NCBI RefSeq assembly: GCF_003312875.1
Contig: NZ_CP015163.1
Location: forward strand, 8,246,001-8,310,000
DNA: 64,000 bases
Direction: 5' to 3'
Origin: Amycolatopsis albispora
Lineage (GTDB): Bacteria; Actinomycetota; Actinomycetes; Mycobacteriales; Pseudonocardiaceae
Numbering within the stretch: the first letter of the stretch is position 1; each line of letters begins with the position of its first letter. A model generated the notes under the pieces. It searched no databases. It was not told the DNA's origin and was given only the letters and a program-made list of their open reading frames with translations. Below, one piece after another: positions 4,178 through 62,100 of the stretch. Position numbers and translations under genes: made by a program.

Positions 4178-4230
4178 GCAATGAATGTGGCTTTCATTGC
4201 GCCAGACGCTATGAAAGCCACATTCATTGC
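4178..4230. repeat. 53-nt palindromic element, copy 1 (intergenic, between convergent genes)
   Basis: Two 23-nt half-units (4178-4200 and 4208-4230) flank the 7-nt spacer GCCAGAC. The outer 20 nt of each side are perfect reverse complements (GCAATGAATGTGGCTTTCAT). Each half-unit is built as an imperfect palindrome around the core TGTGGCT/AGCCACA. It is identical over all 53 nt to copy 4 at 14111-14163. It sits exactly between two convergent stop codons, so as RNA it would form a long stem in either direction and may act as a bidirectional terminator. No U-tract is seen. Confidence 0.9.
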
Positions 4231-4240
4231 GTTCGGGGGC

Positions 4241-5029
4241 TCAGGGGACGATCGAGTCGACGTAGCCGCCGTCCACGCGGACGGCGGCGCCCGTGGTCGC
4301 CGAGGCCAGTGGTGAGCTCAGGTAGACCACCATGTTCGCGATCTCCTCCGGCTCGATCAGCCGCCGCAGCAGTGACTGCGGCCGGTGCAGCCGCATGAAC
4401 TCGCGCTGCGCCTCCTCCCACGGCAGCGAGCGGTCCACCAGCTGGTACACGAAGTCCTCGACCCCGCCGGTGTGCGTGGGCCCGGCGATCACCGAGTTCA
4501 CCGTGACCCCGGTGCCCGCCGCCTCTTTCGCGAACCCGCGCGACACGCCGAGCAGCGCGGTCTTCGAGACGCCGTAGTGGATCATCTCGGCCGGGGTGAC
4601 CAGTGCGGAGTCACTGGCGATGTTCAGCACCCGCCCCCAGCCGCGCGCGGTCATGCCGGGCAGGTAGACGCGGGTCAGCCGGACCGCGGACAGCACGTTC
4701 ACCTCGAAGTACCGCCGCCATTCGTCGTCGCTGATCTCCAGCGGCGGCTCGGCGCCGAAGATGCCGAGGTTGTTGACCAGCACGTCCACTTCGGGCAGTC
4801 GCGCGACCAGTTCCCCGGCCCCTTCCGCGGAGGCCACGTCCGCGACGGCGGCCACCGCGTCCCCGCCCGCCTCGCGCACGCGCGCCACGGCTTCGTCCAC
4901 AGTGGACTGCTTGCGGCCGTTCACCGCCACTCGCGCGCCCGCCTGCGCCAGCCCGGTCGCGATGGCCAGCCCGATGCCCTGGCTGGAGCCGGTGACCAGC
5001 GCGGTCTTCCCGCTCAGGTCCAAGCGCAT
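4241..5029 (-). CDS. SDR-family oxidoreductase (3-oxoacyl-ACP reductase-like)
   Basis: 262 residues. The ATG at 5029 was chosen over an upstream in-frame start because GAGGGGA lies 5-11 nt before it and it begins the conserved MRLDLSGKTALVTG. Motifs: TGSSQGIG (13-20), NNLG (86-89; usually NNAG), S139, Y152 and K156 (YGVSK). The C-terminal RVDGGYVDS fits the classical SDR fold. Third gene of the MFS-AKR-SDR operon, 10 nt after the aldo-keto reductase stop. With that reductase and an exporter it looks like a detoxification set for reactive carbonyl or aromatic compounds, likely under the divergent MarR repressor. The exact substrate is unknown. Confidence 0.85.
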   Translation of the reverse strand: MRLDLSGKTALVTGSSQGIGLAIATGLAQAGARVAVNGRKQSTVDEAVARVREAGGDAVAAVADVASAEGAGELVARLPEVDVLVNNLGIFGAEPPLEISDDEWRRYFEVNVLSAVRLTRVYLPGMTARGWGRVLNIASDSALVTPAEMIHYGVSKTALLGVSRGFAKEAAGTGVTVNSVIAGPTHTGGVEDFVYQLVDRSLPWEEAQREFMRLHRPQSLLRRLIEPEEIANMVVYLSSPLASATTGAAVRVDGGYVDSIVP

Positions 5030-5039
5030 GCCGATCCCC

Positions 5040-5873
5040 TCAGGCCACGTTGAAGGTGTCGGGGTCCGGCCCGGTGCGCTCACCGCGGTCAAGGGACGCC
5101 AGTGCGGCGAGATCCTCGTCGGCCAGCGTGAAGTCGAACACCGCCAGGTTCTCCCGGATGCGCGACGGCGTCACCGACTTGGGGATGACCACGTTGCCCA
5201 GCTGCAGGTGCCAGCGCAGCACCACCTGCGCCGGGGTGCGGTCGTGCTTGGCGGCCAGCTCGCGCACCACCGGGTCGGCGAGCAGGTCGCCGCCCTTGGC
5301 CAGCGGGCTCCACGCCTCGGTGACGATGCCGTGCTTCTCGTTGTACTCGCGGACCTCGGCCTGCTGGAGGTACGGGTGCACCTCGACCTGGTTCACCGCG
5401 GGCACCACCGAGCCGGTGCGCGCCAGCTCGTCCAGGTGGGACGGCTGGAAGTTCGACACGCCGATGGCGCGGATCCGGCCGTCGGCGTGCAGCTTCTCCA
5501 GCGCCCGCCAGCTCTCGGCGTACAGCCCGCGCTCCGGGGTCGGCCAGTGGATCAGGTACAGGTCCAGGTAGTCGAGCCCGAGCCGCTCCGCGCTGGCGTC
5601 GAACGCGCGCAGCGCGGCGTCGTAGCCCTGGTCGGAGTTCCACAGCTTGGTGGTGACAAAAAGGTCCTCGCGCTTGATGCCCGAGTCGGCCAGCGCCTGG
5701 CCGACGCCGCGTTCGTTGCCGTACACGGTGGCCGTGTCGATGCTGCGGTACCCGGCTTCGAGCGCTGAGGTCACCGCGGTCGCGGTCTCCGCGTCGGGAA
5801 CCTGGAACACCCCGTACCCCAGCTGCGGCATGGTCACGCCGTTGTTCAGGGTGACGGTGGGAATGCCGGTCAT
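5040..5873 (-). CDS. Aldo-keto reductase (2,5-diketo-D-gluconate reductase / AKR5-like)
   Basis: 277 residues, a normal length for a single-domain (alpha/beta)8 aldo-keto reductase. The catalytic tetrad is complete: D46 (RSIDTA), Y51 (VYGNE), K76 (TTKLW) and H109 (LIHWP). The NADPH-binding IPKSVTPSRIREN segment is near the C-terminus. The ribosome site AAAGGAAGG precedes the ATG. It reduces aldehydes or ketones with NADPH in the cytoplasm. Middle gene of a minus-strand operon with the MFS exporter upstream (28-nt gap) and an SDR downstream (10-nt gap). Confidence 0.9.
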   Translation of the reverse strand: MTGIPTVTLNNGVTMPQLGYGVFQVPDAETATAVTSALEAGYRSIDTATVYGNERGVGQALADSGIKREDLFVTTKLWNSDQGYDAALRAFDASAERLGLDYLDLYLIHWPTPERGLYAESWRALEKLHADGRIRAIGVSNFQPSHLDELARTGSVVPAVNQVEVHPYLQQAEVREYNEKHGIVTEAWSPLAKGGDLLADPVVRELAAKHDRTPAQVVLRWHLQLGNVVIPKSVTPSRIRENLAVFDFTLADEDLAALASLDRGERTGPDPDTFNVA

Positions 5874-5901
5874 GGAACTTGCCTTCCTTTCGTGGTTTTC
5901 C

Positions 5902-7071
5902 TCAGTGGACGGTGACGAGCCCGGGGGACCGCTTCCGGTCCAGCATCCCCGACAACAGCGCGACCAGCAGCCCGGAGGCGGCGAGCAGGGCGCCGATCCA
6001 GTTGGGCGCGGTGTAGCCGAGGCCGCCGTCGATGGCCAGGCCGCCGAGCCAGGCCCCGCCGGCGTTGCCCAGGTTGAACGCGGCGATGTTCGCCGCCGAC
6101 GCCAGCGCGGGCGCCTCCTTCGCCTGCGCCATCACCCTGGCCTGCAGCGGGGGCACGGTGGCGAACCCGGCGGCGCCGAACAGGGCGATGGTGATCGCCG
6201 CGGGCAGCTGGGCGTGCGCGGTGACCACGAACGCCAGCAGCACCAGCGAAAGCGCCGCGAGAATGGCGTACAGGCTGGGCATCAGCGCCCGGTCCGCGGC
6301 CCGCCCGCCGAGCAGGTTGCCCGCGACCAGCCCGGCGCCGAACAACACCAGCAGCCAGGTGACCGCGCCGCTGGAGAAGCCGGCCACCTCGGTCATCATC
6401 GGCGCGATGTAGGTGAACGAGGCGAACACCCCGGCAAACCCGAGCGCGGTCATCGCCAGCGCCAGCCACACCTGCGGCTTGCGGAACACGGCCAGTTCGC
6501 TGCGCAGGCCACCGCCTTCGACGCGCTCCTGCCGGGGCACCAGCGCGAGAATGCCGACCAGGCCGACCACCCCGAGCGCGCTGACCGCCCAGAACGTGGA
6601 CCGCCAGCCGAGCTGCTGGCCGAGCGCGGTCCCGGCGGGCACGCCGAGCACGTTCGCCACGGTCAGCCCGGTGAACATCATCGCGATCGCGCTGGCCCGC
6701 CGCGACGGCGCGACCAGCGAGGCCGCCACCACCGAGCCGACGCCGAAGAAGGCACCGTGGGACAGCGCAGCCACGATCCGGCCGGTCATCAGCAGGCCGT
6801 AGCCGGTGGCCACGGCCGAGAGCAGGTTCCCGGCGATGAACAGCACCATCAGCGCGACCAGCACGGTCTTGCGCGGAATGCGTGAGCCGAGCGCGGTGAG
6901 CAGCGGCGCGCCGACCACCACCCCCAGCGCGTACCCGGAGATGAGCAGGCCGGCGGCCGGGATGGAGACGCCGAAGTCCGCGGCCACCTCCGGCAGCAGG
7001 CCCATGATCACGAACTCGGTGGTGCCGATGCCGAAGGCGCTGATCGCCAGCGCGAACAAGGCGACGGGCAT
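5902..7071 (-). CDS. MFS transporter, DHA1 family (AraJ/YdhP-like efflux permease)
   Basis: 389 residues from the ATG at 7071, which has AAGGA about 10 nt upstream. A longer in-frame extension to 7179 would cover the promoter region shared with the MarR gene and is not preferred. It has about twelve hydrophobic segments and begins ALFALAISAFGIGTTEFVIM, characteristic of the arabinose-efflux/YdhP group, with the loop GSRIPRK after TM2. It is likely a proton-coupled exporter of small molecules in the cytoplasmic membrane. First gene of the operon with AKR and SDR, divergent from a MarR regulator, a classic arrangement for an inducible efflux and detoxification unit. Confidence 0.88.
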   Translation of the reverse strand: MPVALFALAISAFGIGTTEFVIMGLLPEVAADFGVSIPAAGLLISGYALGVVVGAPLLTALGSRIPRKTVLVALMVLFIAGNLLSAVATGYGLLMTGRIVAALSHGAFFGVGSVVAASLVAPSRRASAIAMMFTGLTVANVLGVPAGTALGQQLGWRSTFWAVSALGVVGLVGILALVPRQERVEGGGLRSELAVFRKPQVWLALAMTALGFAGVFASFTYIAPMMTEVAGFSSGAVTWLLVLFGAGLVAGNLLGGRAADRALMPSLYAILAALSLVLLAFVVTAHAQLPAAITIALFGAAGFATVPPLQARVMAQAKEAPALASAANIAAFNLGNAGGAWLGGLAIDGGLGYTAPNWIGALLAASGLLVALLSGMLDRKRSPGLVTVH

Positions 7072-7096
7072 GACGCTTCGATCCTTCACAACGGTG

Positions 7097-7155
7097 GGTA
7101 TCCTGTGGAGAGCAGATACCGGCGTGAGCAATAGTTGCAGACGCGGGTAATTGCT
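7097..7155. promoter_or_regulatory. Candidate MarR operators in the divergent MFS/MarR promoter region
   Basis: Between the divergent starts (7071 and 7214) lie two inverted repeats: GGTATC (7097-7102) with GATACC (7115-7120), and AGCAAT (7127-7132) with ATTGCT (7150-7155). The stretch is clearly richer in A+T than its surroundings. MarR proteins usually bind such imperfect palindromes in their own divergent promoters; assignment to this regulator is inferred from position. Confidence 0.45.
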
Positions 7156-7213
7156 GACGAGCGATACGCTAGCAGGCAACGATCAGGGCTGTCCCCTGGA
7201 GGAGTGGTGAACC

Positions 7214-7663
7214 GTGTCACTGCCCGATGACGCCGTGGAGGCACGCGCCCAGGGGTGGCGCACCCTGGCGGCACTGCACGCCCGGATCGAGGACCAGCTC
7301 GAACGCGCGCTCCAGCGCGAGCACGAGCTGTCGGTCAGCGAGTACACCGTGCTCGACGTACTGGCCCGCCAGGACGGCTTCCACCTGCGGATGACCCAGC
7401 TCGCCAACGCCGTGGTGCTCAGCCAGTCGGCGACCACGCGGCTGGTGAGCAGGCTCGAGGACCGCGGCCTGCTCCAGCGCTACCTGTGCCCGACCGACCG
7501 CCGCGGCATCTACACCGAGGTGACCGCCGCCGGGCAGGCGCTGCTCGCCGAGGCCCGCCCGACCCACGACCGCACGCTTTCGCGGGCGCTGGCCGACGCG
7601 GAGGAACTGCCCGAGCTGGCCCCGCTGGTCGGCGCGCTGGCCCGGCTCACCGAAGTTTCCTGA
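7214..7663 (+). CDS. MarR-family transcriptional regulator
   Basis: 149 residues from the GTG at 7214, preceded by GGAGGAG at good spacing. The winged-helix core is recognisable: LSVSEYTVLDVLARQDGFHLRMTQL, then LSQSATTRLVSRLEDRGLL as recognition helix and DRRGIYTEVTAAG as the wing. Dimerising helices are at both ends. Probably a repressor of the divergent efflux/reductase operon, released by a phenolic or other small ligand. The ligase gene follows 34 nt downstream but is functionally unrelated. Confidence 0.88.
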   Translation: MSLPDDAVEARAQGWRTLAALHARIEDQLERALQREHELSVSEYTVLDVLARQDGFHLRMTQLANAVVLSQSATTRLVSRLEDRGLLQRYLCPTDRRGIYTEVTAAGQALLAEARPTHDRTLSRALADAEELPELAPLVGALARLTEVS

Positions 7664-7697
7664 GGCGTTTCGGCTGATCACGGCCTACGATCCGAGC

Positions 7698-9772: not shown

Positions 9773-9791
9773 TCGCCTGGCGCGACCCGGC

Positions 9792-12002
<2,211 letters not shown>

Positions 12003-12083
12003 CTACCGACGCTGGCATCCGGCGGGAGAGCGGGGCAACGGCCAGGTGAGCGATAGGCGGTGCCCCAACGAGTGAACCTCCGG

Positions 12084-13229: not shown

Positions 13230-13249
13230 GGGACCTCCTGGCGTAGGGT

Positions 13250-13308
13250 GAACCGGCTAAGACGGTTCTATCAAGCGCCTGCGCTTGGGGGCAACCTGCT
13301 AAGGTGGT
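13250..13308. promoter_or_regulatory. Paired palindromic operator between epoxide hydrolase and CGNR gene
   Basis: GAACCGGCTAAGACGGTTC (13250-13268) and AACCTGCTAAGGTGGTT (13292-13308) are two versions of one site, AACC-N-GCTAAG-N-GGTT, spaced 42 nt apart (about four helical turns). Between them lies a third perfect palindrome, CAAGCGC-CT-GCGCTTG (13272-13287). The second site overlaps the ribosome-binding region of the 13312 gene, so a bound protein could block both divergent promoters. Confidence 0.55.
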
Positions 13309-13311
13309 TCC

Positions 13312-13887: not shown

Positions 13888-13929
13888 GGGTGACGGGCGG
13901 CGCTTCGAGCACCTGAACGCCTCACCGAT

Positions 13930-13984
13930 GGACACGAATGTGGCTTTCGGGGTGTTTTCCGCCCCCAAAGCCACATTCGTGTCC
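13930..13984. repeat. Palindromic element, copy 2 (55 nt, variant centre)
   Basis: Perfect 18-nt arms, GGACACGAATGTGGCTTT at 13930-13947 and its complement at 13967-13984, extended by four more G-C pairs after one mismatch. The core TGTGGCT/AGCCACA is conserved, but the centre (TGTTTTCCG) differs from the GCCAGA type and is 9 nt. It starts 43 nt after the CGNR gene stop, where it could also end transcription. Confidence 0.8.
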
Positions 13985-14002
13985 CGAGTTCGCCCGGGTC
14001 GT

Positions 14003-14055
14003 GTCACGAAAGCCACATTCGAGACGCGAAACGTCTCGAAAGCCACATTCGTGAC
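14003..14055. repeat. 53-nt element, copy 3 (one core flipped)
   Basis: Half-units 14003-14025 and 14033-14055 flank the spacer GCGAAAC. The outer sequences (GTCACGAA, TTCGAGAC, GTCTCGAA, TTCGTGAC) equal those of the copies inside the PKS genes. In the left half-unit, however, the 7-nt core is AGCCACA instead of TGTGGCT, so the two cores are in direct rather than inverted orientation. The 23-7-23 layout is kept exactly. Confidence 0.8.
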
Positions 14056-14110
14056 GTTCGGACTCCCCTGCGGAAGGGCGTCGCACGGTGGCGCCCACCC
14101 GACCCCCGAT

Positions 14111-14163
14111 GCAATGAATGTGGCTTTCATTGCGCCAGACGCTATGAAAGCCACATTCATTGC
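14111..14163. repeat. 53-nt palindromic element, copy 4 (intergenic)
   Basis: Identical over 53 nt to copy 1 (4178-4230), ten kilobases away: half-units 14111-14133 and 14141-14163 with spacer GCCAGAC. The flanks of the two copies are unrelated, which defines the element ends. Confidence 0.9.
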
Positions 14164-15080
14164 ACGGGTCGGTCAGGGACACCCGCGGCAGCTTGGTGTC
14201 GGGTCACTGCGCCCGGAGCATCCATTGTGGACATCCGCAGGCCTCTGCGCCGGCAGCGGCGAGTGGGTGGCCGAGGTGGGGCTCCAGGGGGCCGCGTCCG
14301 AGCCTTGCCGGGCGGGACTTTGGTTACATGCTGAGGGATGTCGTGCGGGTCGGCTGGGGTGGTCGAGGTGGGGGTGCCAAGGGGCTTCGTCCGAGCCTTG
14401 TCGGGCGGGACTTTGGTTACATGCCGAGGGACGTCGTGCGGCTCGGCCGGGGTGGTCCAGGTGGAGCACCAAGGGTGTCGCTCAGGCAGCTGGGGTGGCT
14501 GTGGCTGGGCGCCAAGGGAGTGGCGCCCGGTTTCGGTGGGTGCGGCCGGGCACTAGTGGGCGCGGTTCGTTCGGGGTGCTGGAGCTGGGCGCGGTGAACG
14601 GGCCTCGCCGGGGTGGCTGTGGCTGGGCGCCAAGGGAGTGGCGCCCGGTTTTGGAGGGTGCGGCCGGGTACTAGTGGGCGCGGTTCGTTCGGGGTGGTGG
14701 AGCTGGGCGCGGTGAAGGGGCCTCGCCGGGGTGGCTGTGGCTGGGCGCCAAGGGAGTGGCGCCCGGTTTCGGTGGGTGCGGCCGGGTACTAGTGGGCGCG
14801 GTTCGTTCGGGGTGGTGGAGCTGGGCGCGGTGAAGGGGCCTCGCCGGGGTGGCTGTGGCTGGGCGCCAAGGGAGTGGCGCCCGGTTTCGGTGGGTGCGGC
14901 CGGGCACTAGTGGGCGCGGTCCGTTCGCGGGTGCTGGAGCTGGGCGCGGCGAACGGGCCCGCCGGGATGGCCGGGACTGGGCGCCAAAAAGTGGGTGCGG
15001 TCCGCGGGTTGAGGGAGGCTGGGTGCCAGCGGGCGCAGCGCATTCGGGGGCTGGCGACGAATGAGCGTGCCAGCTGGGTG
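14164..15080. repeat. Non-coding tandem-repeat array (93-bp and 118-bp units with internal hairpins)
   Basis: No convincing gene is seen here. Two units of about 93 bp begin at 14296 and 14389 (sharing GTCCGAGCCTTG and GGACTTTGGTTACATG). Four units of 118 bp follow, starting at 14492, 14610, 14728 and 14846, more than 90 percent alike. Each 118-bp unit holds the inverted repeat GGGCGCC-AAGGGAGT-GGCGCCC and one ACTAGT. The array decays after about 14965. The only open frames are low-complexity by-products of the repeats. The units are too long and contiguous for a CRISPR. Confidence 0.85.
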
Positions 15081-15086
15081 GTCGGG

Positions 15087-15115
15087 ACTGGGCGCCAAAA
15101 GGGATGGCGCCCAGT
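15087..15115. terminator. Strong hairpin downstream of the DHA2 exporter gene
   Basis: Perfect 11-bp arms ACTGGGCGCCA (15087-15097) and TGGCGCCCAGT (15105-15115) around a 7-nt loop, about 65 nt past the minus-strand stop at 15181. It resembles the hairpin inside each 118-bp unit. The GC-rich stem without a U-tract is common for actinomycete terminators; function is inferred. Confidence 0.5.
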
Positions 15116-15180
15116 CTCGGAGGAGGTGGCTCGGCGCCGAAGGGCGCCGCAGCGGGGTTGGTTGGGTGAGGCCGCGGGGG

Positions 15181-17001: not shown

Positions 17002-17021
17002 CGCGAAACGCCCGTGGCCGG

Positions 17022-18696: not shown

Positions 18697-20640
18697 ATGG
18701 AGACCGCGGGACGGCCACTGGCCAGGTCGATGTTGTACTGCCTGTCGGGTGGGGCTTTGTCGGTGTTTTTTGTGCTCGCAGCCGCTCAGCAAGCGGAGGC
18801 TGCCCCCGCGAAGCAGAACGACAAGGGGCAGGTGAGGCAGGCGGCCCCGGACAAGTCTGACGATCGGGCGCGTCGGGCTCCTGCTGTGGGTGGCAAGGGT
18901 GGTTCGGGGGCGCCTGTTGATATTCGCAAGGTGCGTGAGTTGGGGAAGGGGTCGGAGGAGCGGCGTAGGGCTGAGGATCGGAAGGCTGGGGAGGAGAAGG
19001 CGCGCAAGGCCGAGGAGAGGAAGGCGGAGGAGCGGAAGGCTGGCGAGCGGTCGCGGCAGGGTGAGTCGCGTCGGGCTCCTGCGGTGGGGGGTAAGGGTGG
19101 TTCTGGGGAACCTGTTGATATTCGCAAGGTGCGTGAGCTCGGGAAAGGTTCCGAGGAGCGGCGCAAGGCCGAGGACCGGAAGGCTGAGGAAGAGAAGGCC
19201 CGCAAGGCCGAGGAGCGCAAGGCCGAGGAGCGCAAGGCTGGCGAGCGGTCGCGTCAGGGTGAATCGCGTCGGGCTCCGGCTGCGGGGAGTAAGGGTGGTT
19301 CTGGGGAACCTGTTGATATTCGCAAGGTGCGTGAGCTCGGGAAAGGTTCCGAGGAGCGGCGCAAGGCCGAGGACCGGAAGGCTGAGGAAGAGAAGGCCCG
19401 CAAGGCCGAGGAGCGCAAGGCCGAGGAGCGCAAGGCTGGCGAGCGGTCGCGTCAGGGTGAGTCGCGTCGGGCTCCTGCTGCGGGAAGTAAGGGCGGTTCT
19501 GGGGAACCCGTTGATATTCGCAAGGTGCGTGAGTTGGGGAAGGGGTCGGAGGAGCGGCGCAAGGCCGAGGATCGGAAGGCTGAGGAGGAGAAGGCGCGCA
19601 AGGCCGAGGAGCGCGAGGCGGGGGAGCGGTCGCGTCAGGGTGAGTCGCGTCGGGCTCCTGCGGTGGGTGGTAAGGGTGGTTCTGGGGAACCCGTTGATAT
19701 TCGGAAGGTGCGTGAGCTCGGAAAAGGTTCCGAGGAGCGGCGTAGGGCCGAAGACCGGAAGGCCGAGGAGACACGGAAGGCCGAGGAGACACGGAAGGCT
19801 GAGGAGGCACGGAAAGCCGAGGAGCGCGAGGCTGACGCACGGAAAGCCGAGCGAGGGCGTGCTCCGGCCGTGGCCGGGAAGGGTGGTTCGGGGGCGCCTG
19901 TCGACCTGCGCAAGCTTCGTGAGATCGGGCGTGGTTCGGAGCAGCGGCGCGAGGCGGAGCAGGAGCAGCGTCAGGCCGAGCAAGCACAGCGCCAGGCTGA
20001 GCAAGCGCGACGCCAGGCTGAGCAAGCCCAGCAGCAGCCGACCGCGGCTCCTCGGCGCAGTCCGGCCGTAGCCGGCAAGGGTGGCTCGGGAGCACCCGTC
20101 GACCTCCACAAGCTTCGCGAGATCGGACGCGGCTCGGAAGAACGGCGAAAGGCGGAGGACGCACGACGCCAGGCTGAGCCCCCCTCGCAGGGGAAATGGC
20201 CCAGGTCGGTCGGTGTGTGCGCCAACGTCGGTGCGTCCGGTGGCGCGTCCGTTGGCGGGGGCACGTGCGCGGTGCTCGACGGCAAAGGCGGCGGCATCAC
20301 CCGGAGCATGCGCGGCGGCGCCGCAGTCGGTGGGGGTGCGGACGCCAGCGTCGGTGTCCAGGCCTCGTCAGCCGACCTCGAGGGCCTGGCCGGTTACTCC
20401 GCCAACGGCACCGCCTCCGGGTCGATGGGCCCCGGCGTCGAGGGCTCGGCCGGGGTGAGCTTGGACGGCAACAACAACTGGACGGTCAGCGGCGGCCCGG
20501 CCTGGGGCGCGGAAGCGTCCGGCGGCGTGAACATCGAAAAGACCGAAGTGCACCGGCTCTTCAACTGGGAGGACCTGTTCCCCCAGCCGGTCGAACGGGT
20601 CATGGCTCCAGGGCCTGAAGGGAAACCCCACGCATGGTAG
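18697..20640 (+). CDS. Secreted protein with seven ~66-residue charged repeats and a Gly-rich C-terminal domain
   Basis: 647 residues. The ATG at 18697 has an excellent AAAGGAGGT site, so the upstream in-frame extension is rejected. A Sec-type signal peptide covers residues 1-36 (hydrophobic ALSVFFVLAAA, cleavage likely after AEAA). Seven repeats begin at residues 60, 126, 192, 258, 319, 388 and 455. Each opens with AP-KGGSG[AE]PVD[IL]RK[VL]RE[LI]G[KR]GSE-RR and continues as a Glu/Lys/Arg-rich helix, first A-E-E-R-K type and later A-E-Q-A-Q-R type. Residues 500-647 form a Gly/Ala/Ser-rich domain with two cysteines (508, 524) and NNNWTVSGG. No known family is recognised. The charged segments could be long single alpha-helices. 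Codon use (GTTGATATT) is more T-ending than in neighbouring genes. Confidence 0.8.
   Translation: METAGRPLARSMLYCLSGGALSVFFVLAAAQQAEAAPAKQNDKGQVRQAAPDKSDDRARRAPAVGGKGGSGAPVDIRKVRELGKGSEERRRAEDRKAGEEKARKAEERKAEERKAGERSRQGESRRAPAVGGKGGSGEPVDIRKVRELGKGSEERRKAEDRKAEEEKARKAEERKAEERKAGERSRQGESRRAPAAGSKGGSGEPVDIRKVRELGKGSEERRKAEDRKAEEEKARKAEERKAEERKAGERSRQGESRRAPAAGSKGGSGEPVDIRKVRELGKGSEERRKAEDRKAEEEKARKAEEREAGERSRQGESRRAPAVGGKGGSGEPVDIRKVRELGKGSEERRRAEDRKAEETRKAEETRKAEEARKAEEREADARKAERGRAPAVAGKGGSGAPVDLRKLREIGRGSEQRREAEQEQRQAEQAQRQAEQARRQAEQAQQQPTAAPRRSPAVAGKGGSGAPVDLHKLREIGRGSEERRKAEDARRQAEPPSQGKWPRSVGVCANVGASGGASVGGGTCAVLDGKGGGITRSMRGGAAVGGGADASVGVQASSADLEGLAGYSANGTASGSMGPGVEGSAGVSLDGNNNWTVSGGPAWGAEASGGVNIEKTEVHRLFNWEDLFPQPVERVMAPGPEGKPHAW
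18874..20148 (+). repeat. Tandem 198-bp repeat inside the secreted protein gene
   Basis: Period 198 bp for the first four units (66 residues), then units of 61, 69 and 67 residues. Units 2 and 3 (starting at about 19072 and 19270) are nearly identical at the DNA level, including silent positions, indicating recent duplication or unequal crossing-over. Units 6 and 7 have diverged. Confidence 0.9.
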
Positions 20641-20659
20641 GAGCTACACACACCGGAAG

Positions 20660-25635: not shown

Positions 25636-28600
25636 ATGGACAACGAACAGAAGCTCCGGGACTACCTCAGGCGCGCGAGCGCGGATCTCCGCCGCACGCG
25701 GCAGCGGCTGAACGAGATCGAGGCCGCCTCGCAGGAGCCGATCGCCATCGTCGGCATCGGCTGCCGGTACCCGGGCGGGGTGCGCACCCCGGAGCAGCTG
25801 TGGGACATGGTGATCGCCGGGGAGCACGGCATCACCGAGTTCCCGGCCGACCGCGGCTGGAATCCCGAGATGCTGGCCATGTCGAACACCCGCTCCGGCG
25901 GCTTCCTGCACGACGCCCCGGAGTTCGACGCGGACTTCTTCCGGATCTCGCCGCGCGAGGCGCTGTCGATGGACCCGCAGCAGCGCGTGCTGCTGGAGGT
26001 CACCTGGGAGGCGCTGGAGCGCGCCGGCATCGACCCGACTTCGATCAAGGGCACGCAGACCGCGGTTTTTGTCGGCGCGATGGCGCAGGACTACCAGGTC
26101 GGCCCGGGTGAGGGCGGCGAGGGCTTCCAGCTGCTCGGCAACTCCAACAGCGTGCTGTCCGGCCGGATCTCCTACACCTACGGCTTTGTCGGCCCGGCCG
26201 TCACCATCGACACCGCGTGCTCGTCCTCGCTGGTCGCCATGCACCTGGCCACGCAGTCGCTGCGCAACGGCGAATGCGAGCTGGCGCTGGCCGGTGGCGC
26301 CACGATCATGTCCAGCCCGACCACCATCGTGGAGTTCAGCAGGCAAGGTGGGCTCTCGCCGGACGGGCTGTGCCGCTCGTTCGCCGAGTCGGCCGACGGC
26401 ACCGGCTGGGCCGAGGGTGCCGGTGTGCTGGTGCTGGAGCGGCTGTCGGACGCGCAGCGCAACGGGCACGAGATCCTCGCCGTGATCAGGGGTTCCGCGG
26501 TCAACCAGGACGGCGCGTCGAACGGGCTGACCGCGCCGAACGGGCCGTCGCAGCAGCGGGTGATCCAGCAGGCGCTGATCAACTCGCGGTTGTCCGAGGA
26601 CCAGATCGACGTGGTCGAGGCACACGGCACGGCCACCACGCTCGGCGACCCGGTGGAGGCGCAGGCGCTGCTGGCCACGTACGGCCGGAACCGCAGCCGG
26701 CCGCTGCTGCTCGGGTCGATCAAGTCGAACATCAGCCACACCCAGGCCGCGGCGGGCGTGGCCGGCGTGATCAAGATGATCATGTCGATGCGGCACGGCG
26801 TGCTGCCGAAGTCGCTGGGCATCGACCAGCCGACCTCGCACGTGGACTGGACCGCGGGTGCGGTCGAGCTGATCACCGAGAACACGCCGTGGCCGGAGAC
26901 CGGCGAGCCGAAGCGCGCGGCGGTGTCCTCGTTCGGCATCAGCGGGACCAACGCGCACACCATCATCGAGCAGGCGCCGGAACTGGTGGTCGAGGGCGAG
27001 ACGGGCGAGGCTCCCGCGCTGGTCGAGGCCGGCATGGTGCCGGTGCTCGTCTCCGGTCGCAGCCGTGAGGCGCTGCGAGCGCAGGCCGAGCGCCTGCTGT
27101 CCGTTTTGGACGATGAACCGCCGTTGCTGGACCTGGCTTTCTCGCTGGCGACCACCAGGGCGAGCTTCGAGCACCGCGCGGTCGTGCCGTCGGACGACCT
27201 GCGTGCCGGGCTGACCGCGCTGGCCGCCGGGGAGGTGGCGCCGGGCACGCTCACCGGCACCATGCACAGCCGGTCCAAGACGGCGTTCCTGTTCACCGGG
27301 CAGGGCGCGCAACGGCTGGGCATGGGCCGGGAGCTGTACGCCCGGTTCCCGGTCTTCGCGGCGGCGCTGGATGAGGTGCTGGCTGGCTTGGCGAGTGTCA
27401 CGAATGTGGCTTTCGAGACGCCAGATGTCTCGAAAGCCACATTCGTGACATCGGCGGAGGGGCTCCGCGAGGTCATGTGGGGCGAGGATGCCGATGCGCT
27501 GGACCAGACCGGGAACGCGCAGCCCGCGTTGTTCGCCATCGAGGTGGCGTTGTACCGGCTGGTGGAGTCGTGGGGCATCAAGCCCGACTTCCTGGCCGGG
27601 CATTCGATCGGCGAGATCGCGGCCGCCCATGTCGCCGGGGTGATGTCCCTTGAGGACGCCGCGAAACTGGTGACCGCGCGTGGAAAGCTCATGCAGGCGC
27701 TGCCTGCGGGCGGCGCCATGGTGGCGATCCAGGCGACCGAGGACGAGGTCACGCCCCTGCTCACCGAGGGCGTTTCCATCGCGGCGATCAACGGACCCGA
27801 TTCCGTGGTGGTTTCCGGTGACGAGGATGCCGTCGAGGCGGTGGTCGCCCAGTTCGAAGGTCGCAAGACCAAGCGCCTCACCGTTTCCCACGCCTTCCAC
27901 TCGCCGCGCATGGACGCCATGCTCGATGATTTCCGCGCGGTTGTTGCAGATCTCGACCTGCAGGCCCCGCTGATCCCGTTCGTCTCGAACCTGACCGGCG
28001 AGCTGGCGCGCGTCGAGCAGGTGACCTCCGCGGACTACTGGGTGGACCACGTCCGCCAGGCCGTGCGGTTCGCCGACGGTGTGTCGTGGCTGCGCGGCCA
28101 CGGCGTCGGCACCTTCCTGGAGCTGGGCCCGGACGGCGTGCTGTCGGCGATGGTCCAGGGCATCGTGGACGACGTGGTCGCGGTGCCGGTGCTGCGAACC
28201 GGGCGCGAAGAGGCGCGGACCGCCACCACCGCGCTCGCCACCCTGCACGTCAACGGGATTCCCGTGCGGTGGGCCGAATACTTCGACCGCACCGGCGCGG
28301 TGCGCATCGACCTGCCGACGTACGCCTTCCAGACCAGGCGGTTCTGGCCGAAGGGCGGTGGCTTCGGCTTCGGCGGCGACCCGCGCTCGTCCGGTCTCGG
28401 TGCCGCGCGGCACCCGCTGCTGGCCGCGGCGGTCTCGCTCGCGGACTCCGACGGCGCGCTGCTGACCGGGCGCCTTTCCCTGCACACCCACGCCTGGCTG
28501 GCCGACCACGCGGTCTCCGGCCGGGTGCTGCTGCCCGGCACGGCGTTCCTGGAACTGGCCATCCGCGCCGGGGACGAGGTCGGCTGCGACCGCGTCGAGG

Positions 28601-46600: not shown

Positions 46601-49600
46601 AGGAACTGGCCCTCACCGCCGCGCTGGGCACGCTGCACGCGAACGGGGTGGACATCGACTGGGCCAGCTACTTCACCGGCACCGGCGCCGCCCGTGTCGA
46701 CCTGCCGACCTACGCGTTCCAGCGTGAGCGGTACTGGCCGGAGGGCACCCTCGCGATGGGGCCGCCGGAAGCGGCCGTCGATCCGGCCGACGCGGAGTTC
46801 TGGGCCGCGGTGGACCGGGCGGACTTCGACTCGGTGGCGTCCACTTTGGAACTCGACGGCGAAGCGGTGACCGAGGTGGTCCCGGCGCTGTCGTCCTGGC
46901 GCCGCCGCCGTCGTGAGCAGTCCGTTGTGGACGGCTGGCGGTACCGCACGGTGTGGCGGCCGATCAGCGCCGACGGCACGCTCGCCGGCCGCTGGCTGGT
47001 GCTGCTCCCCGCCGAGACGTCGGAGGACGAGTGGACCTCCGACGTGGTGGAGGCGCTGGGGGACAACACGGTCTGCCTGGATGTGAGTAGCCGCGCCGAA
47101 CTCGCCGGGCTCCTGACGGAGCTGGACGAAACCTTCGACGGGGTGGTGTCGCTGCTGGCGACGCGGGGTGCCGAGGTGCCCGACTACGCGTGGCCCGCCG
47201 AGCAGCTGCAGGTGCTCGGCGAAGCCGGGATCACCGCGCCGCTGTGGTGCGTCACCCGGGGCGCGGTCGCGGTCGGTGACGAGATCGCGGCGAACTACGG
47301 CCAGGCCGCGGTCTGGGGCCAGGGCCGCGTTTCCGCGCTGGAACAGCCGGACCGCTGGGGCGGCCTGGTGGACCTGACCACCGCGAACGGCCTCGCCGCC
47401 GTGCTCGCCGGGACGGAGAACCAGGTCGCGGTGCGAGAGCACGGGATCTTCGGCAGGCGGCTGGTCCGGGCGCCCGGCTCGTCGGGCTCGTGGACGCCGG
47501 AGGGCACGATCCTGCTGGTCGGCGGCAACGAGGAGCTGGCGAGCTGGCTCGGCCGCGAAGGCGCGACCGTGGTCACCGGCACCGCCGCCGACCGGGACGC
47601 GCTGGCCGCGTTGCTGGCCGAGCACGAGTTCACCGCCGTGGTGCACGCCGGTGAAGCGGCCGAGGACTTCGAGAGCGCGGTCGCGGGCGTGCGCCACCTG
47701 GACGAACTGCTCGGTGACCGGCCGCTGGACGCCTTTGTGGTGCTCGGCTCGATCGCCGGGGTGTGGGGGGTGCGCGGCCGTGGCCCGCAGGCCGCGGTGG
47801 ACGCCTACGCCGAAGCCGTGGTCCGCGCCCGGCGTGCCCGCGGGGCGACCGCGCTGCACCTGGCGTGGGGTCCGTGGGCGGAGACGCCGGAAAGCCAGCT
47901 GGCGCGGCACCTGCGCCTGAGCGGGCTGCCGGGCATCAACGCGGACCTGGCGCTCGCCGCACTGGGCCGCGCGGTCGCCGCCGGGGACACCTCGGTGACC
48001 GTGGCGGACGTGCGGTGGGAGACCTTCGCGCCGTCGCTGCCGGGCGCGCTGCTCGCCGAGCTGCCGGAGGCGGCCGCTGTTGAGTCCGATGTGGACGCCG
48101 GTGCCTCGGAACTGCGGCAGCGCCTGCTGTCCATGCCGCCGGAGGACCGCGCCGACGCACTGCTGGCGGTGGTCCGCGAGAAGATCGCCGTGGTGCTCGG
48201 GCACACGACCACCGAGGCGATCGAGGACGGGTCGCCGTTCCGCGACCTGGGCTTCGACTCGCTGACCTCGGTCGACCTGCGCAACCAGCTCAACAACGAA
48301 ACCGGGCTGAGCCTGCCCGCCACGCTGGTCTTCGACTACCCGACGCCCAGCGAGCTGACCGCCTACCTGCTCGAAGAGCTGCTGGGCGCGCGCAATGAAA
48401 GCCACATTCATAGCGCGTCACGCAATGAAAGCCACATTCATAGCGCCGACGACCCGATCGCCATTGTCGGCATGGCCTGCCGGTTCCCCGGCGGCGTGCG
48501 GTCGCCGGAGGACCTGTGGGAACTGGTCACCGGCGGGGTGGACGCCGTCGGTGAGATGCCGGCCGATCGCGGCTGGGACTTCGAGAAGTTGTTCGGTGAT
48601 AAGCAGAGCATCACCCGCCAGGGCGGCTTCCTCTACGACGTGGCCGACTTCGACCCGGACTTCTTCGCCATCTCACCGCGTGAGGCGCTGGTGATGGACC
48701 CGCAGCAGCGTGTGCTGCTGGAGTCGGCGTGGGAGGCGATGGAGCGTGCCGGGATCGATCCCGGCACGCTGCGCGGCACCGACGCCGGGGTGTTCATCGG
48801 CGGCGGCAGCGGCGAGTACCGCCTGCCCGCCGAGACCGCCGGGCACGAATGGCAGACCGCGCAGTCGGCGAGCCTGCTCTCCGGCCGCCTCGCCTACACC
48901 TTCGGCTTCCAGGGCCCGACGGTTTCGGTCGACACGGCGTGCTCGTCGTCGCTGGTCTCGCTGCACCTGGCCGCGCAGGCCCTGCGCAACGGCGAATGCT
49001 CGATCGCGCTGGCCGGTGGGGTCACCGTGATGGCCACGCCGGTGGGCTTTGTCGAGTTCAGCGCCCAGGGCGCGTTGTCGGAGGACGGCCGCTGCAAGGC
49101 GTTCGCCGACACCGCCGACGGCACCGGCTGGTCCGAGGGCGTGGGCATGCTGGTGGTGGAGCGGCTGTCCGACGCCCGCCGCAACGGGCACGAGGTGCTC
49201 GCCGTGGTCCGCGGCTCGGCGATCAACTCCGACGGGGCGTCCAACGGGCTGACCGCGCCGAGCGGCCCGTCGCAGCAGCGGGTGATCCGGGCGGCGCTGG
49301 CGAACGCCGGTCTGTCCACTTCGGACGTGGACGCGGTGGAGGCGCACGGCACCGGCACCAAGCTCGGTGACCCGATCGAGGCGCAGGCACTGCTGGCGAC
49401 CTACGGCCGGGACCGCGAAGAACCGCTGCTGCTGGGCACGATCAAGTCCAACATCGGGCACACGCAGTCGGCGGCGGGTGTGGCCGGCGTGATCAAGATG
49501 GTGCTGGCCATGCGCAACGGCCAGCTGCCGCGCACGCTGCACGTGGACCGCCCGACCACTCAGGTGGACTGGAGCGCGGGCGCGGTCCGGCTGCTCACCG

Positions 49601-52600
49601 AGACCACGCCGTGGCCGGAAGTGGGCCGCCCGCGCCGGGCCGGGGTGTCCTCGTTCGGTGCCAGCGGCACCAACGCGCACCTGATCCTGGAGCAGGCGGA
49701 GACCGTGCCGCCGACGGAGGCGGTCGCTCCCGAGCGCAAGCCCGAGGTGATGCCGGTGCTGGTCTCCGGCCGCACCCCGGCGGCGCTGCGGGCGCAGGCG
49801 AACCGGCTGCTCGAACTGGCCCGTGAGAACGACGACCTGGCCGGGATCGCGTTGTCGGCGGCGACCACCCGCGCCGCCTTCGAACACCGCGCGGTGGTGC
49901 TCGCCGGTCAGCAGAGCGAACTGGTCGACGGCCTGGTCGCGCTGGCGGAGGACGCCACGGCCCCGCACGTGGTGCGCGACGAGGCGGCCCGCTCCGGCAA
50001 GCTCGCCTGCCTGTTCACCGGGCAGGGCGCGCAGCGGATCGGCATGGGCCGTGAGCTGTACAACCGCTTCCCGGCGTTCGCTTCGGCGCTTGACGAGGTG
50101 CTCGAGGCGCTGGCGAGTGTCACGAATGTGGCTTTCGAGACGCCAGATGTCTCGAAAGCCACATTCGTGACATCGCTGCGCGACGTGATGTGGGGGGATG
50201 ATCGGGCGGCGCTCGACCAGACCGGCAATGCCCAGCCCGCGTTGTTCGCCGTCGAGGTCGCGCTGTACCGGCTGCTGGAGTCGTGGGGCATCAAGCCGGA
50301 CTTCCTCGCCGGGCATTCGATAGGTGAGCTGTCCGCCGCCCACGTGGCTGGGGTGCTTTCCCTTGACGACGCCTGCACGCTGGTCTCCGCCCGCGCTCGC
50401 CTGATGCAGGCGCTCCCGGCCGGTGGTGCGATGGCGGCGCTGCAGGCGAGCGAGGAGGACGTGCGGCCGTACCTGGTCGAAGGTGTGTCGATCGCCGCGG
50501 TGAACGGGCCGAACTCGGTGGTCGTCGCCGGGGACGCGGAACTGGTCGAGAAGGTGGCCGAACCGTGGAAGGCCAAGTGGCTCAAGGTCTCCCACGCCTT
50601 CCACTCGGCGCACATGGACCCGATGCTGGACGAGTTCCGCGCGGTCGCGAACACCCTGACCTTCGAAGCGCCGCGCATCCCGATCGCCACCGAAGGCGAC
50701 GTGACCTCACCCGAGTACTGGGTGCGGCACGTGCGGGACGCCGTGCGGTTCGGGGACGCGATGCGGTCGCTGGACAGCCGGGGTGTGGCCACCTACGTGG
50801 AACTGGGCCCGGACGCGGCGCTGTCGGCGATGGCCCGCGAGTCGATCTCGGCGCAGGCCGTGGTGGTTCCGGTGCTGCGCAAGGACCGCGGTGAGGAGAA
50901 CAGCCTGGTCTCCGCGCTCGCCAGGGTGCACACCCGCGGTGTCCGGATCGGCTGGCGCGAGTTCTTCGACGGTGTCGGCGCGAGCAGGGTGGACCTGCCG
51001 ACCTACGCCTTCCAGCGGCAGCGGTACTGGCCGGACGCGGTGCCCGCCGCACCCAAGGCGGAGACCGATGGTGTGTCCGACCAGGGGCTTTGGGACGCGG
51101 TGGCGAAGCAGGACTTCGCTTCGCTGCAGTCGGTGCTCGACGTGGACACCGAGTCGCTGTCCAAGGTGCTCCCGGCGCTGCTCGACTGGCGGCGCCAGCG
51201 CGAGGACCAGTCCGTTGTGGACAGCTGGCGGCACCGCATCGCCTGGAAGCCGCTGGGCGGGAAGAAGACCGATCGGCTCGACGGCACCTGGCTCGCGGTG
51301 GTCCCGGCCGGGCGCGGGGAACTGCTCGACGCGATCGACGGCGAGTTCGTCCCGGTCGAGGTCGGTGCACCCGACCGCGAGCAGCTCGCCGAAGCGCTCA
51401 AGGCACACGGTGGTACGCGGTTCACCGGGGTGGTTTCCCTGCTGGCGCTGGCCGATTCGGCCGGCGGCGGGGCACCGGCCGGGGTGCTGCTGACCGCGAC
51501 CCTGGTCCAGGCGCTCGGTGACGCGGGCATCACCGCGCCGCTGTGGTGCCTGACCAGCGGGGCCATCTCGGTGGGTCGCTCGGAGGCGCCGGCGCACCCG
51601 GAGCAGGCGGGTGTCTGGGGTCTCGGCCGGGTGGCCGCGATGGAGTACCCGGAGCGCTGGGGCGGGCTGCTCGACGTGCCCGCGCCGCTCGACGACCGGG
51701 TGGTCCGGGGCATCACGTCCGTCCTTTCCGGACTGGACGGTGAGGACCAGGTGGCCGTGCGGACCAGCGGCATCTTCGGGCGGCGGCTGCTGCCCGCCCC
51801 GGCACCGGTTCCGGCGCGGGAGTGGACGCCGGAGGGCACGGTGCTGATCACCGGCGGCACCGGCGCGCTGGGCGGGCACGTGGCCCGCACCCTCGCCGAG
51901 GCCGGGACGCGGCACCTCGTGCTGGTCAGCCGCCGCGGTCCGGACGCACCTGGTGCCGAGGAACTGCGGACCGAGCTGGCCGGGCTCGGCGCGGCGGTGA
52001 CCGTGGCCGCGTGTGACGTCACCGACCGGGAGGCGATGGAGAACCTGCTCGGCACGATCCCGGACCTGACCGGTGTGGTGCACGCGGCGGGTGTGCTCGA
52101 CGACGGGGTGCTCGACCGGCTCACGCCCGACCGGTTCCAGGAGGTGTTCCGCACCAAGGTGGATTCCGCGCTCCTGCTGGACGAGCTGACCAGGGACATC
52201 GATCTCGGCGCGTTCGTGTTGTTCTCCTCGGCGTCTTCGGCCATCGGCAATCCCGGTCAGGCCAACTACGCCGCGGCGAACGCGGTGCTCGACGCGCTCG
52301 CCGAGCGCCGCCGGGCCGGCGGGCACGCGGCGACCTCGATCGCCTGGGGTGCCTGGGGTGGCGGCGGCATGGCGGGCAGCGACCAGGCCATGGACACCGC
52401 GCGCCGGGCCGGGGTGGCGATGATGGATCCCGCGCTGGCCTGCCAGGTGCTGCGGCAGCTGGCCGCGGAGAGCGAGCCGACCGCGGTGGTGGCCGCGGTC
52501 GACCAGAGCCGGTTCGGTTCCGGTTTCCGGCCCAGCCCGCTGATGCGTGAGCTGGCGCCCGCGCGGGAGCAGGTGGAGGCCGCGCCCGCCGAACCGGCAC

Positions 52601-53130: not shown

Positions 53131-53138
53131 GTCAGAGC

Positions 53139-59100: not shown

Positions 59101-62100
59101 ACAGCTCACCGGACGCGATCGGGGTCGATCGTGAGTTCCGGCAGCTGGGCTTCGACTCGCTGACCGCCGTCGAACTGCGCAACCGCCTCGGCTCGGCGAC
59201 CGGCATGACCCTGCCCGCGACGCTGGTCTTCGACTACCCGACCCCGCGGGTGCTGGCCGAGTACCTGCTTGACGAACTGCTGGGCGCCGCGGAGGAGCTG
59301 ACCGAGATCGCGCCGCAGGCCGCGGGCACCGCCGACGACCCGGTGGTGATCGTCGGGATGAGCTGCCGGTTCCCCGGTGGCATCGACTCGCCGGAGGACC
59401 TCTGGCAGTTCCTGCTCGACGGCGGTGACGCGATCACCGACTTCCCGCCGGACCGCGGCTGGGAGTCCGACCCGACCGGCGGCACCGAAGGCGCGAAGGG
59501 CGGCTTCCTGGCCGACATGGCCGGGTTCGACACCGGCTTCTTCGGCATCTCGCCCCGCGAGGCCAAGGCGATGGACCCGCAGCAGCGCCTGGTGCTGGAG
59601 GTCTCGTGGGAGGCCATCGAGCGCGCCGGGATCGACGCCGCGGCCCTGCGCGGCACGCCGACCGGCGTGTTCATGGGCACCGGCGGGCAGGACTACACCA
59701 ACGTGGTGCTGCGGGCCAACGAAGATCTCGAAGGCCACGCCAGCACCGGCCTGGCCGCGGCCGTCATTTCCGGCCGCGTCTCCTACAGCTTCGGCTTTGT
59801 CGGCCCGTCGCTGACCATCGACACCGCGTGCTCGTCGTCGCTGACCGCGCTGCACCTGGCCGCGCAGTCGCTGCGCACCGGGGAAAGCTCGCTGGCGCTG
59901 GTCGGCGGCGTCGCGGTGATGAGCACCCCGATGAGCTTCGCCGGGTTCACCGCGCAGGGCGGGCTCGCACCGGACGGCCGGTGCCGCGCCTTCTCCGACG
60001 ACGCCAGCGGGACCAGCTGGTCCGAGGGCGTCGGGGTGCTGGTGATGGAGCGGCTGTCCGACGCCCGCCGCAACGGGCACCAGGTGCTCGCCACGCTGCG
60101 CGGCAGCGCGGTCAACCAGGACGGCGCGTCGAACGGGCTGACCGCGCCGAACGGGCCGTCGCAGCGCCGGGTGATCCGCGCCGCGCTGGCCGGTGCCGGG
60201 CTCGCCGCGTCCGATGTGGACGTTGTGGAGGCACACGGCACCGGGACCAAGCTGGGTGACCCGATCGAGGCGCAGGCCCTGCTGGCCACCTACGGCCAGG
60301 ACCGCGAACGGCCGTTGCTGCTCGGTTCGGTGAAGTCGAACCTGGGCCACACGCAGGCCGCGGCCGGTGTGGCCGGGGTGATCAAGACGGTGCTGGCGCT
60401 GCGGCACGGGGTGGTGCCCAAGACACTGCACGTGGCCGAGCCGACGTCCCATGTGGACTGGTCGGCCGGTGCGGTGGAACTGGTCACCGAGGCCACGCCG
60501 TGGCCGGAGGTCGATCGCGCCCGACGGGCCGGGGTGTCCTCGTTCAGCCTGAGCGGCACCAACGCGCACGTGATCTTCGAGCACACGCCGGTGGCCGAGG
60601 CCGAACCGGCCGAGCGGGACGAGCCGGAGATCGTGCCGGTGCCGGTGTCGGCGAAGACCCCGGAAGCGGTCGATGGCCAGCTGGAGCGCATCCGCTCGTT
60701 CCTCGGCTCGCACTCCGCGCTGGACACGGCGTATTCGCTGGTGACAACGCGCACGGAGTTCGAGCACCGCGCGGTACTGCTGTCCACAAAGGATGGTGTG
60801 GTGGAGGTCGCGCGGGGAACCGCGGTGGACCGTCCGCTCGCCGTGTTGTTCTCCGGCCAGGGTTCGCAGCGGCTGGGCATGGGCCGGGAGCTGTACGCCC
60901 GGTTCCCGGTCTTCGCGGCGGCGCTGGATGAGGTGCTGGCTGGCTTGGCGAGTGTCACGAATGTGGCTTTCGAGACGCCAGATGTCTCGAAAGCCACATT
61001 CGTGACATCGGTGGAGGGGCTTCGCGAGGTGATGTGGGGGGAGGACGCCGACGCGCTGAACGAGACCGGCGCCACGCAGCCCGCCCTGTTCGCCATCGAG
61101 GTGGCGCTCTACCGGCTCGTCGAGTCGTGGGGTGTGAAGCCGCGATTCCTGGCGGGCCATTCGATCGGTGAGATCGCGGCCGCGCACGTCGCCGGGGTGC
61201 TCAGCCTGGAGGACGCGTGCCGGCTGGTCGGCGCCCGTGCCCGGCTGATGCAGGCGCTCCCGGCCGGTGGCGCGATGGTGGCGATTCGCGCCACGGAGGA
61301 CCAGGTGTCCCCGCTGCTCACCGAGGGCGTGTCCATCGCGGCGGTCAACGGGCCGTCGTCGGTGGTCGTCGCGGGTGACGAGGCCGAGGTGCTGGCCATC
61401 GCCGAAGGCTTCGAGAAGACCTCCCGGCTCCGGGTGTCCCACGCGTTCCACTCGCCGCTGATGGACCCGATGCTGGACGACTTCCGCGCGGCCATCGGGG
61501 AACTCACCTTCCACGAGCCCCAGCTCCCGGTGGTCACCACGGGCGACGTGACCTCGCCGGAGTACTGGGTGCGGCACGTCCGCGACGCCGTGCGCTTCGC
61601 CGACAACGTGTCCACTTTGGTCAGCGAGCGCGCCGGGGTGTTCCTGGAACTGGGCCCCGACGGCGTGCTGTCCGCGATGGTCGCGGAAACCGCGCCGGAC
61701 GCGGTGGTGGTGCCGGTGCTGCGCAAGGACCGGCCCGAGGAGCCCACCGCGCTGACCGCGCTGGCGAAGCTGCACGTCAACGGCGTCCCGGTGGACTGGA
61801 CCAGCCTGTTCCCCGGCGCCCGCCGGATCGACCTGCCGACCTACGCCTTCCAGCACGAAAAGTGCTGGCCGTCGATGGCCACCGGGGCGCGGGCCGGTGA
61901 CGTGTCCGGGCTCGGCCTGTTCTCCACCAAGCACCCGCTGCTGACCGCGGCGATGGCGGTCGCCGGTTCGGACGAGATCGTGCTGACCGGGCGACTCTCC
62001 CTGACCACCCACCCGTGGCTGGCCGACCACCGGGTCGGCGGCCGGGTGGTCTTCCCCGGCACCGGCTTCCTCGACCTGGTCATCCGCGCGGGCGACCTGG

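Follow-up and report, generated by a model that had tools for sequence, protein, structure and literature searches.

The question raised by this locus is what a short palindromic unit, found at eight places in the window, does there and how it spread. The window is the whole stretch of Amycolatopsis albispora DNA that was analysed, 64,000 nucleotides in length. The initial annotation had recognized a dispersed family of 53-nt elements with paired cores. A search of the 64-kb window for the core GAATGTGGCTTTC found 16 copies, 15 of them exact and one with a single mismatch, and these make eight pairs. This compares with a mean of 0.41 pairs (maximum 3) in 100 shuffles of the window, which confirms that the paired-core elements and their constant 53-nt build are real.

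All eight elements contain two 13-nt cores at a 30-nt step, i.e. with a linker of 17 nt. The order of parts is outer arm (5 nt), core (13), inner arm (5), spacer (7), and again inner arm, core and outer arm. Each half-unit is a quasi-palindrome with its 13-nt core at the centre. The eight copies are the following:

4178..4230, + strand: element with arm type B, cores inverted, with a convergent gene pair around it (core pair search)
13931..13983, + strand: element with arm type C, cores inverted, one core with one mismatch, intergenic (core pair search)
14003..14055, + strand: element with arm type A, cores direct, intergenic (core pair search)
14111..14163, + strand: element with arm type B, cores inverted, intergenic (core pair search)
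27397..27449, + strand: element with arm type A, cores inverted, in-frame in the acyltransferase domain of a polyketide synthase (Pfam PF00698)
48392..48444, + strand: element with arm type B, cores direct, in-frame in the linker between carrier protein and ketosynthase (Pfam PF00550, PF00109)
50119..50171, + strand: element with arm type A, cores inverted, in-frame in a homologous module, at the same place as the 27397 copy (core pair search, reading frame)
60954..61006, + strand: element with arm type A, cores inverted, in-frame in the homologous module of the next gene, at the matching place (core pair search, reading frame)

The copy at 13930 had been described as 55 nt long; it is in fact a 53-nt element (13931-13983), and the figure of 55 arises from one extra paired base on each side (GGACAC...GTGTCC). 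The other details of the description held largely true. The spacer begins with GC in seven of the eight copies, the exception being GTTTTCC in the 13931 copy, and the cores are inverted in six copies and direct in two (14003 and 48392). The core was thought to be the only asymmetry of the unit; this is not so at 48392, where the outer and inner arms are also incompletely complementary. The window further contains two tandem repeats, one of 118 bp (4.2 copies, 95% matches, 14492-14987) directly after three of the elements, and one of 198 bp (4.6 copies, 89% matches, 18869-19769).

For a wider view we used a sample of 2.06 Mb, or 23% of the genome, of which about 0.86 Mb was picked for having elements and 1.2 Mb was taken irrespective of them. 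In 90 single inverted elements from this sample the core is nearly invariant, while arms and loop vary. At every arm position, starting one base beyond the outer arm and ending at the first base of the spacer, the base is paired with its mirror base in 70-90 of the 90. The end bases of the spacer are paired in 73 of the 90, which leaves a loop of 5 nt in most cases, and an element with inverted cores folds as a single long hairpin. The arms belong to type A (TGTCAC...GTGACA) in 44 elements, type C (GRACAC...GTGTYC) in 26, type B (GCAAT or GCTAT) in 18 and other types in 2; the expectation of at least two outer frames was thus correct, since three occur in this genome. Of the six inverted copies in the window, five were folded as RNA and gave -38.1 to -44.7 kcal/mol, against shuffle means of -12.2 to -14.9 kcal/mol. 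The sixth, at 50119, is identical in all 53 letters to two of the five. The two direct copies fold far more weakly (-24.4 and -13.3 kcal/mol).

The complete genome of the window's strain (G000; 9.12 Mb, one contig, with the window at 8,246,001-8,310,000) contains 765 exact cores (369 + 396) and no copy of a reversed control. The genome-wide search found hundreds of pairs in a fixed 30-nt register. There are 278 inverted pairs at gaps of 10-30 nt, all of which span 43 nt from core to core among the matches listed. Direct pairs number 50 at gaps of 14-20 nt, 39 of them at a gap of 17. The reversed (-+) arrangement occurs at one site with a gap of 30, where it bridges neighbouring elements, and never at a gap of 17. 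The ratio of inverted to direct to reversed pairs at gap 17 is therefore 278 : 39 : 0, the gap of the inverted pairs being 17 in every one among the matches listed. About 1.2 reversed pairs would be expected if cores flipped independently at the rate of direct pairs, so the zero by itself proves little. The initial annotation had proposed a defined mobile unit with free core orientation. The fixed register and the dispersed copies support the first part of this proposal, and the bias in orientation speaks against the second. Isolated cores account for only 18 of 142 clusters (2.06 Mb, up to 2 mismatches).

Direct two-core elements are unevenly distributed among the arm types in the 2.06 Mb, with 15/59 in A, 4/22 in B and 0/27 in C (A versus C, Fisher P=0.002). 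All four direct B copies in the sample are located in polyketide synthase genes, and a single 55-mer, identical at five sites, accounts for 5 of the 15 direct A copies. The confinement of direct elements to types A and B, together with the five identical copies, indicates that orientation was largely inherited during spread; the direct copies are in part a spreading subfamily. Identical copies are also common in general: 39 of 100 non-coding two-core elements have a 55-mer twin elsewhere, with up to 7 sites per 55-mer. The orientations of 39 direct pairs, with synthase copies and near duplicates dropped, form 11 runs where 19.9 are expected (P=0.0015, post hoc), and the 31 gap-17 direct pairs alone form 10 runs (P=0.009, post hoc). 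Replication polarity was considered as a cause and rejected, because the switch near 3.83 Mb does not coincide with dnaA (6.51 Mb) or with the position across the chromosome from it. An apparent strand bias among the core matches listed reflects which matches were listed.

Next we consider the position of the elements relative to genes, which were called with a simple custom gene finder. The 124 clusters with at least two cores comprise 109 intergenic, 11 coding and 1 overlapping cluster, and 3 at segment edges. The intergenic ones lie 69 times in convergent, 36 times in tandem and 4 times in divergent gaps; the shares of these three kinds in the intergenic DNA are 16%, 50% and 33%, respectively, and some gaps scored as element-free in this placement contain truncated elements. 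One gap can hold several clusters, and counting by gap is therefore fairer. Among gaps of at least 50 nt in the 2.06 Mb, an element is present in 50/125 convergent, 29/482 tandem and 4/287 divergent gaps. The excess in convergent gaps over all others (33/769) is significant (Fisher P=6e-26). The same picture emerges from the unselected 1.2 Mb, with 17/79 convergent, 10/305 tandem and 2/176 divergent gaps (17/79 versus 12/481, P=9e-9). A second genome of the genus (G026), in stretches picked for having cores, has 28 of its 38 clusters in convergent gaps and the other 10 in tandem gaps. The median distance to the nearest stop codon is 28 nt, and 55 of 105 elements lie within 30 nt of one; of the 36 in tandem gaps, only 23 lie nearer to the stop codon than to the following start.

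A second strong hairpin is rare where an element is present. In convergent gaps of 45-260 nt, one was found in 1/35 gaps with an element and in 24/47 without; with 35-130 nt of searchable sequence, the figures are 1/12 and 19/32 (P=0.003). The coding background for strong hairpins is 2/400.

The element looks like a portable gene-end cap. Its location, its mirror-paired arms and the scarcity of further hairpins beside it favour a hairpin that serves 3' ends in both directions. On balance we think it more likely than not that these are REP-like, non-autonomous mobile palindromes which are kept where they are useful as two-way hairpins at mRNA 3' ends. Whichever side transcription comes from, an element would fold into a hairpin of some 24 bp and thereby terminate the mRNA or protect its 3' end, and it could in this way replace an ordinary terminator. 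Its duplicative spread would be due to an enzyme that tolerates changed arms but requires the core and the 30-nt register. With intrinsic terminators the elements share a stable hairpin shortly after the stop codon. However, at least 4 T within the 9 nt beyond either side occur in only 3 of 69 convergent-gap elements, as compared with 10 of 25 ordinary hairpins, at least one of which is a truncated element. This missing T-tract counts against simple intrinsic termination; a protection of 3' ends that are made otherwise fits equally well. Mismatches in the stem comprise 30 G-U and 22 A-C, and on the sense strand of tandem gaps 4 G-U and 7 A-C. Because there is no preference for G-U, selection at the RNA level is not proven. 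One direct form, for all the weak folding of direct copies, has nonetheless spread.

These last observations bear on the strongest rival, in which the elements are purely selfish palindromes with no 3'-end function that insert broadly, and selection clears them from promoters and genes so that the convergent spaces remain. The absent T-tract, the indifference to G-U, the in-frame copies in polyketide synthases and the avoidance of divergent gaps (4/287) speak for this reading. It does not account well for the tandem gaps, which escape promoters only in part and are used in 29/482 cases as compared with 50/125 for convergent gaps, nor for the rarity of a second hairpin in gaps that bear an element. 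We consider this explanation rather unlikely.

The copies inside genes form a special case. Polyketide synthase genes hold ten of the 11 coding clusters, and the remaining one is in a gene of 627 aa. Three A copies occupy an equivalent place in acyltransferase domains of different modules, which have paralogues that are free of the element; similar copies also recur in adjacent synthase genes. The copies in this system may have spread by recombination of modules, in which case they count as few insertions. They would be tolerated because they are in-frame and sit at a domain edge or in a linker. Rickettsia palindromic elements also insert in-frame into protein-coding genes. The present elements resemble them in this respect and differ in that the coding copies are few and lie in polyketide synthases, while most copies are at gene ends. 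The copies in synthase genes alter proteins of biotechnological interest. An Rfam scan of five sources gave only eight matches, all to ASpks (RF01782), all in the synthase genes of the window and none at an element. They lie on the minus strand between window positions 26656 and 60335, one in each of eight synthase modules, and probably reflect coding conservation and not an RNA.

Evidence for gain or loss of elements comes from empty orthologous sites, a comparison that the initial annotation had proposed. Of 30 G026 elements, three in two gaps could be matched to G000, and both gaps are element-free there, the matching flanks lying 35 and 55 nt apart; the remaining G026 elements had no counterpart gap within the G000 DNA compared. 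A further case is the place after a gene which we take to be menJ-like (Pfam lends weak support, with the FAD-binding domain PF01494 and a geranylgeranyl reductase domain below cut-off) and which is followed by a PF00507 gene. G000 has a C-type copy at this place and A. anabasis, the closest over the 20-kb region (84.7% identity) among the best 80 loci from a scan with the menJ-like protein, has none. Among 27 Amycolatopsis loci, the place is without a strong hairpin in some (L125, L136, L137), holds a short hairpin in L123, L126 and L127, and elsewhere holds one of several unrelated nested palindromes. The species pairs L102/L104 and L113/L118 are 95.5% identical over the region, and their palindromes after the menJ-like gene differ.

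Flank matches of 2-10 nt, which would indicate the target-site duplication typical of MITEs, were not consistently above shuffles in 100 elements. No gene family recurred within 300 nt of elements among 152 genes (2.06 of 9.12 Mb). The Y1 transposase domain PF01797 was found in 0/80 genomes of the genus, while 5/14 control genomes were positive. Mobilization by a RAYT, the REP-type transposase suggested as a partner, was rejected for this reason. With no target-site duplication and no linked enzyme, the identical copies and the presence/absence differences alone speak for mobility; gene conversion between copies could be another source of identity. In collections of phages, plasmids and viral contigs, neither the exact inverted pair nor one type-A element had a match. 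The idea that the elements belong to a longer transposon was also rejected, since the flank matches (the best 25 of 197 longer matches were examined and one was traced) were other elements or copies of a second palindrome that is centred on CTTGTCAAGGC...CCTTGACAAG.

This second palindrome, dispersed between genes and with variable arms, occurs at L081 ~10252-10479 (G000 near 7,935,260); hairpins of the same kind are at L103:9003, L106:11359, L115:11323 and L117:11337, and beside G026 elements. Further families of gene-end palindromes in Amycolatopsis, with the words CGCATTTCGTCCTCTG..., CGTGAGTGTT..., GTGAAGGCC... and TAATGAACGACC... (L104:11268, L104:11484, L102:11276 and L124:4915), are apparently lineage-specific. 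The gap between menD-like and LamB-YcsF genes (L102 ~4790-5200 and relatives) contains arrays of ~28-30-nt units with ATCACGCG words in both directions, and the length of the array varies among closely related species. In G000, a DDE transposase gene (PF13359; L097:10828-11604, G000 5,600,828-5,601,604) is flanked by elements of type C, A (direct) and B, and the elements may have been a target of this transposase.

We then compared relatives. The exact core is present in 14 of 80 genomes of the genus, but in more than 10 copies in only four (G000 765, G057 317, G026 286, G053 35). A variant with one changed letter, GAAAGCCACTTTC, occurs in 35/80 genomes, with 56-588 copies in 19 of them and 0-10 in the four exact-core genomes. 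A further word, CAATGTGGCATTG, was found in 43/80 genomes, with 48-168 copies in 12 and none in these four. The variants are not strictly exclusive, since G052 and G074 are above the threshold for both GAAAGCCACTTTC and CAATGTGGCATTG. Among the matches listed, the sites of either word show 30-nt or 60-nt steps in several genomes. The arm types in G026 are A and C plus GCCGT.

The register extends beyond these words. The degenerate core AANGSCACNTT was worded after viewing hairpins in the same loci in which it was counted, a set of 80 named loci with a length of at most 21 kb. It occurs there 77 times, as compared with 5 for the reversed pattern. These loci were the best 80 from a scan with the menJ-like protein of the window's genome, and most are from Amycolatopsis. 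Thirty pairs lie within 95 nt of each other, 23 at 30, 6 at 60 and 1 at 54 nt; the 30-nt pairs come from 13 loci in Amycolatopsis, Prauserella and Actinophytocola. Among 249 Pseudonocardiaceae genomes the exact core occurs in 11. One of another genus (G295) has 84 copies, which form 35 reversed (-+) pairs at the searched gaps of 10-30 nt. All of these span 43 nt among the matches listed, their linkers are different, and their half-units are by look less palindromic. No exact inverted pair was found in named genome contigs, a set from which near genomes are perhaps absent.

From each element type or locus, with the exception of L134, L132 and G295, one half-unit was picked by hand, and the alignment of these 17 is free of gaps. 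Their own 9-bp stem, with a 5-nt loop, is paired in 84% of cells, and at 7 of the 9 pairs changes occurred on both sides. The covariation score is 0.513, against 0.194 in shuffles that ignore relatedness (0/500 as high) and at most 0.199 for slid structures. Since the search pattern is part of every one of the 17, the two A-T pairs that never vary are given no weight. Together, these data define an apparently undescribed superfamily of palindromes in Pseudonocardiaceae, built from a core, a 17-nt linker and a second core. Its members in related lineages swap cores and arms and hold the 30-nt register, and one other genus reverses the orientation of the cores.

So constant a register could also point to a protein. 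BIMEs of enteric bacteria have been proposed to serve as binding sites of gyrase, and by analogy the elements might be DNA-level sites for gyrase or another chromosome protein where convergent transcription meets. The nearly invariant core among variable arms would suit such a site, as would the quasi-palindromic half-units whose arms covary across families and the register that is kept even with reversed cores. Yet a protein site does not predict that an adjoining second hairpin should be rare, and other species have other cores at the same place, which makes this explanation improbable. Very improbable is a role as DNA-uptake signals, comparable to those of Neisseria and Haemophilus, in an actinomycete capable of natural transformation. 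The hundreds of copies of a short conserved word and its lineage-specific variants would suit it, as would the inverted pairing at the ends of genes, which is described in the accessible part of PMC1852404, but lone cores make up just 18/142 clusters and the unit is a fixed 30-nt pair.

The favoured reading, mobile palindromes kept as two-way 3'-end hairpins, can be compared with known systems. Short mobile elements that consist of two hairpins in tandem, with an unknown mobilizer, are present in fungal mitochondria. These double-hairpin elements are similar in their shortness and their two successive hairpins; the host is different, and here the hairpins are mutually complementary and located at gene ends. 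The placement is like that of REP elements, and the elements probably also work like them. As far as the accessible part of PMC3733652 describes them, the GTAG and CGTC super-families of REPs have hundreds of copies, mostly in convergent and tandem gaps and some within genes; a family of Y1 transposases is held to move the GTAG REPs, while CGTC REPs have a stem of 8-9 bp, a loop of 4-5 nt, frequent inverted dimers and no dedicated transposase. The phyla named for these super-families in that part of the article do not include Actinobacteria. The present elements share with REPs the high copy number, the extragenic location and the preference for gene 3' ends. They share with CGTC REPs the half-unit geometry (9-bp stem, 5-nt loop) and the predominance of inverted dimers (278 versus 39 direct). 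In contrast to GTAG REPs they have no unpaired GTAG tag, their ends being TGTCAC/GTGACA, GCAAT or GCTAT, and GRACAC/GTGTYC, and the genus has no Y1 transposase (0/80 genomes). CGTC is confined to the base-paired linker of type A and is missing from the linkers of types B, C and D. The exact 30-nt register and the nearly constant pairing of both half-units into one long hairpin also distinguish them from REPs. Since the tags of both classes and the transposase of the GTAG class failed to turn up, the elements are REP-like and stand outside the named classes.

Uptake-signal terminators of Neisseria and Pasteurellaceae, in the accessible part of PMC1852404, are similar in that a word in inverted pairs forms hairpins after genes and has lineage variants; in our case single words are rare, the two words keep a constant distance and the elements are not known to take part in uptake. 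The intergenic stem-loop repeats in the accessible part of PMC1590033 are likewise enriched at 3' ends and in convergent gaps, and some are repeat families, in Yersinia, Bordetella and Enterococcus. The families named there are from other bacterial groups, and that part describes no nested 30-nt register. A literature search on the core words and on palindromic repeats (titles and abstract openings, mainly open-access) showed no description in Pseudonocardiaceae among the papers listed, in line with the first impression that no named family has this layout. What is new here is apparently the palindromic superfamily with its strict 30-nt register; the REP-like kind was already known.

Finally, we tentatively propose something broader, which we regard as possible but somewhat doubtful. 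Portable gene ends, moved by something other than a Y1 transposase, may throughout the family replace a genome's own terminator hairpins one at a time and so give rise to lineage-specific "terminator dialects" over hundreds of transcripts. If this is true, a repeat that spreads is taking over the mRNA 3' ends of these antibiotic producers, and the turnover of terminators would be directly visible between species that are about 95% alike. The constancy of the register across genera, in spite of changing arms, cores and orientation, is a sharp clue to the machine that recognizes it.
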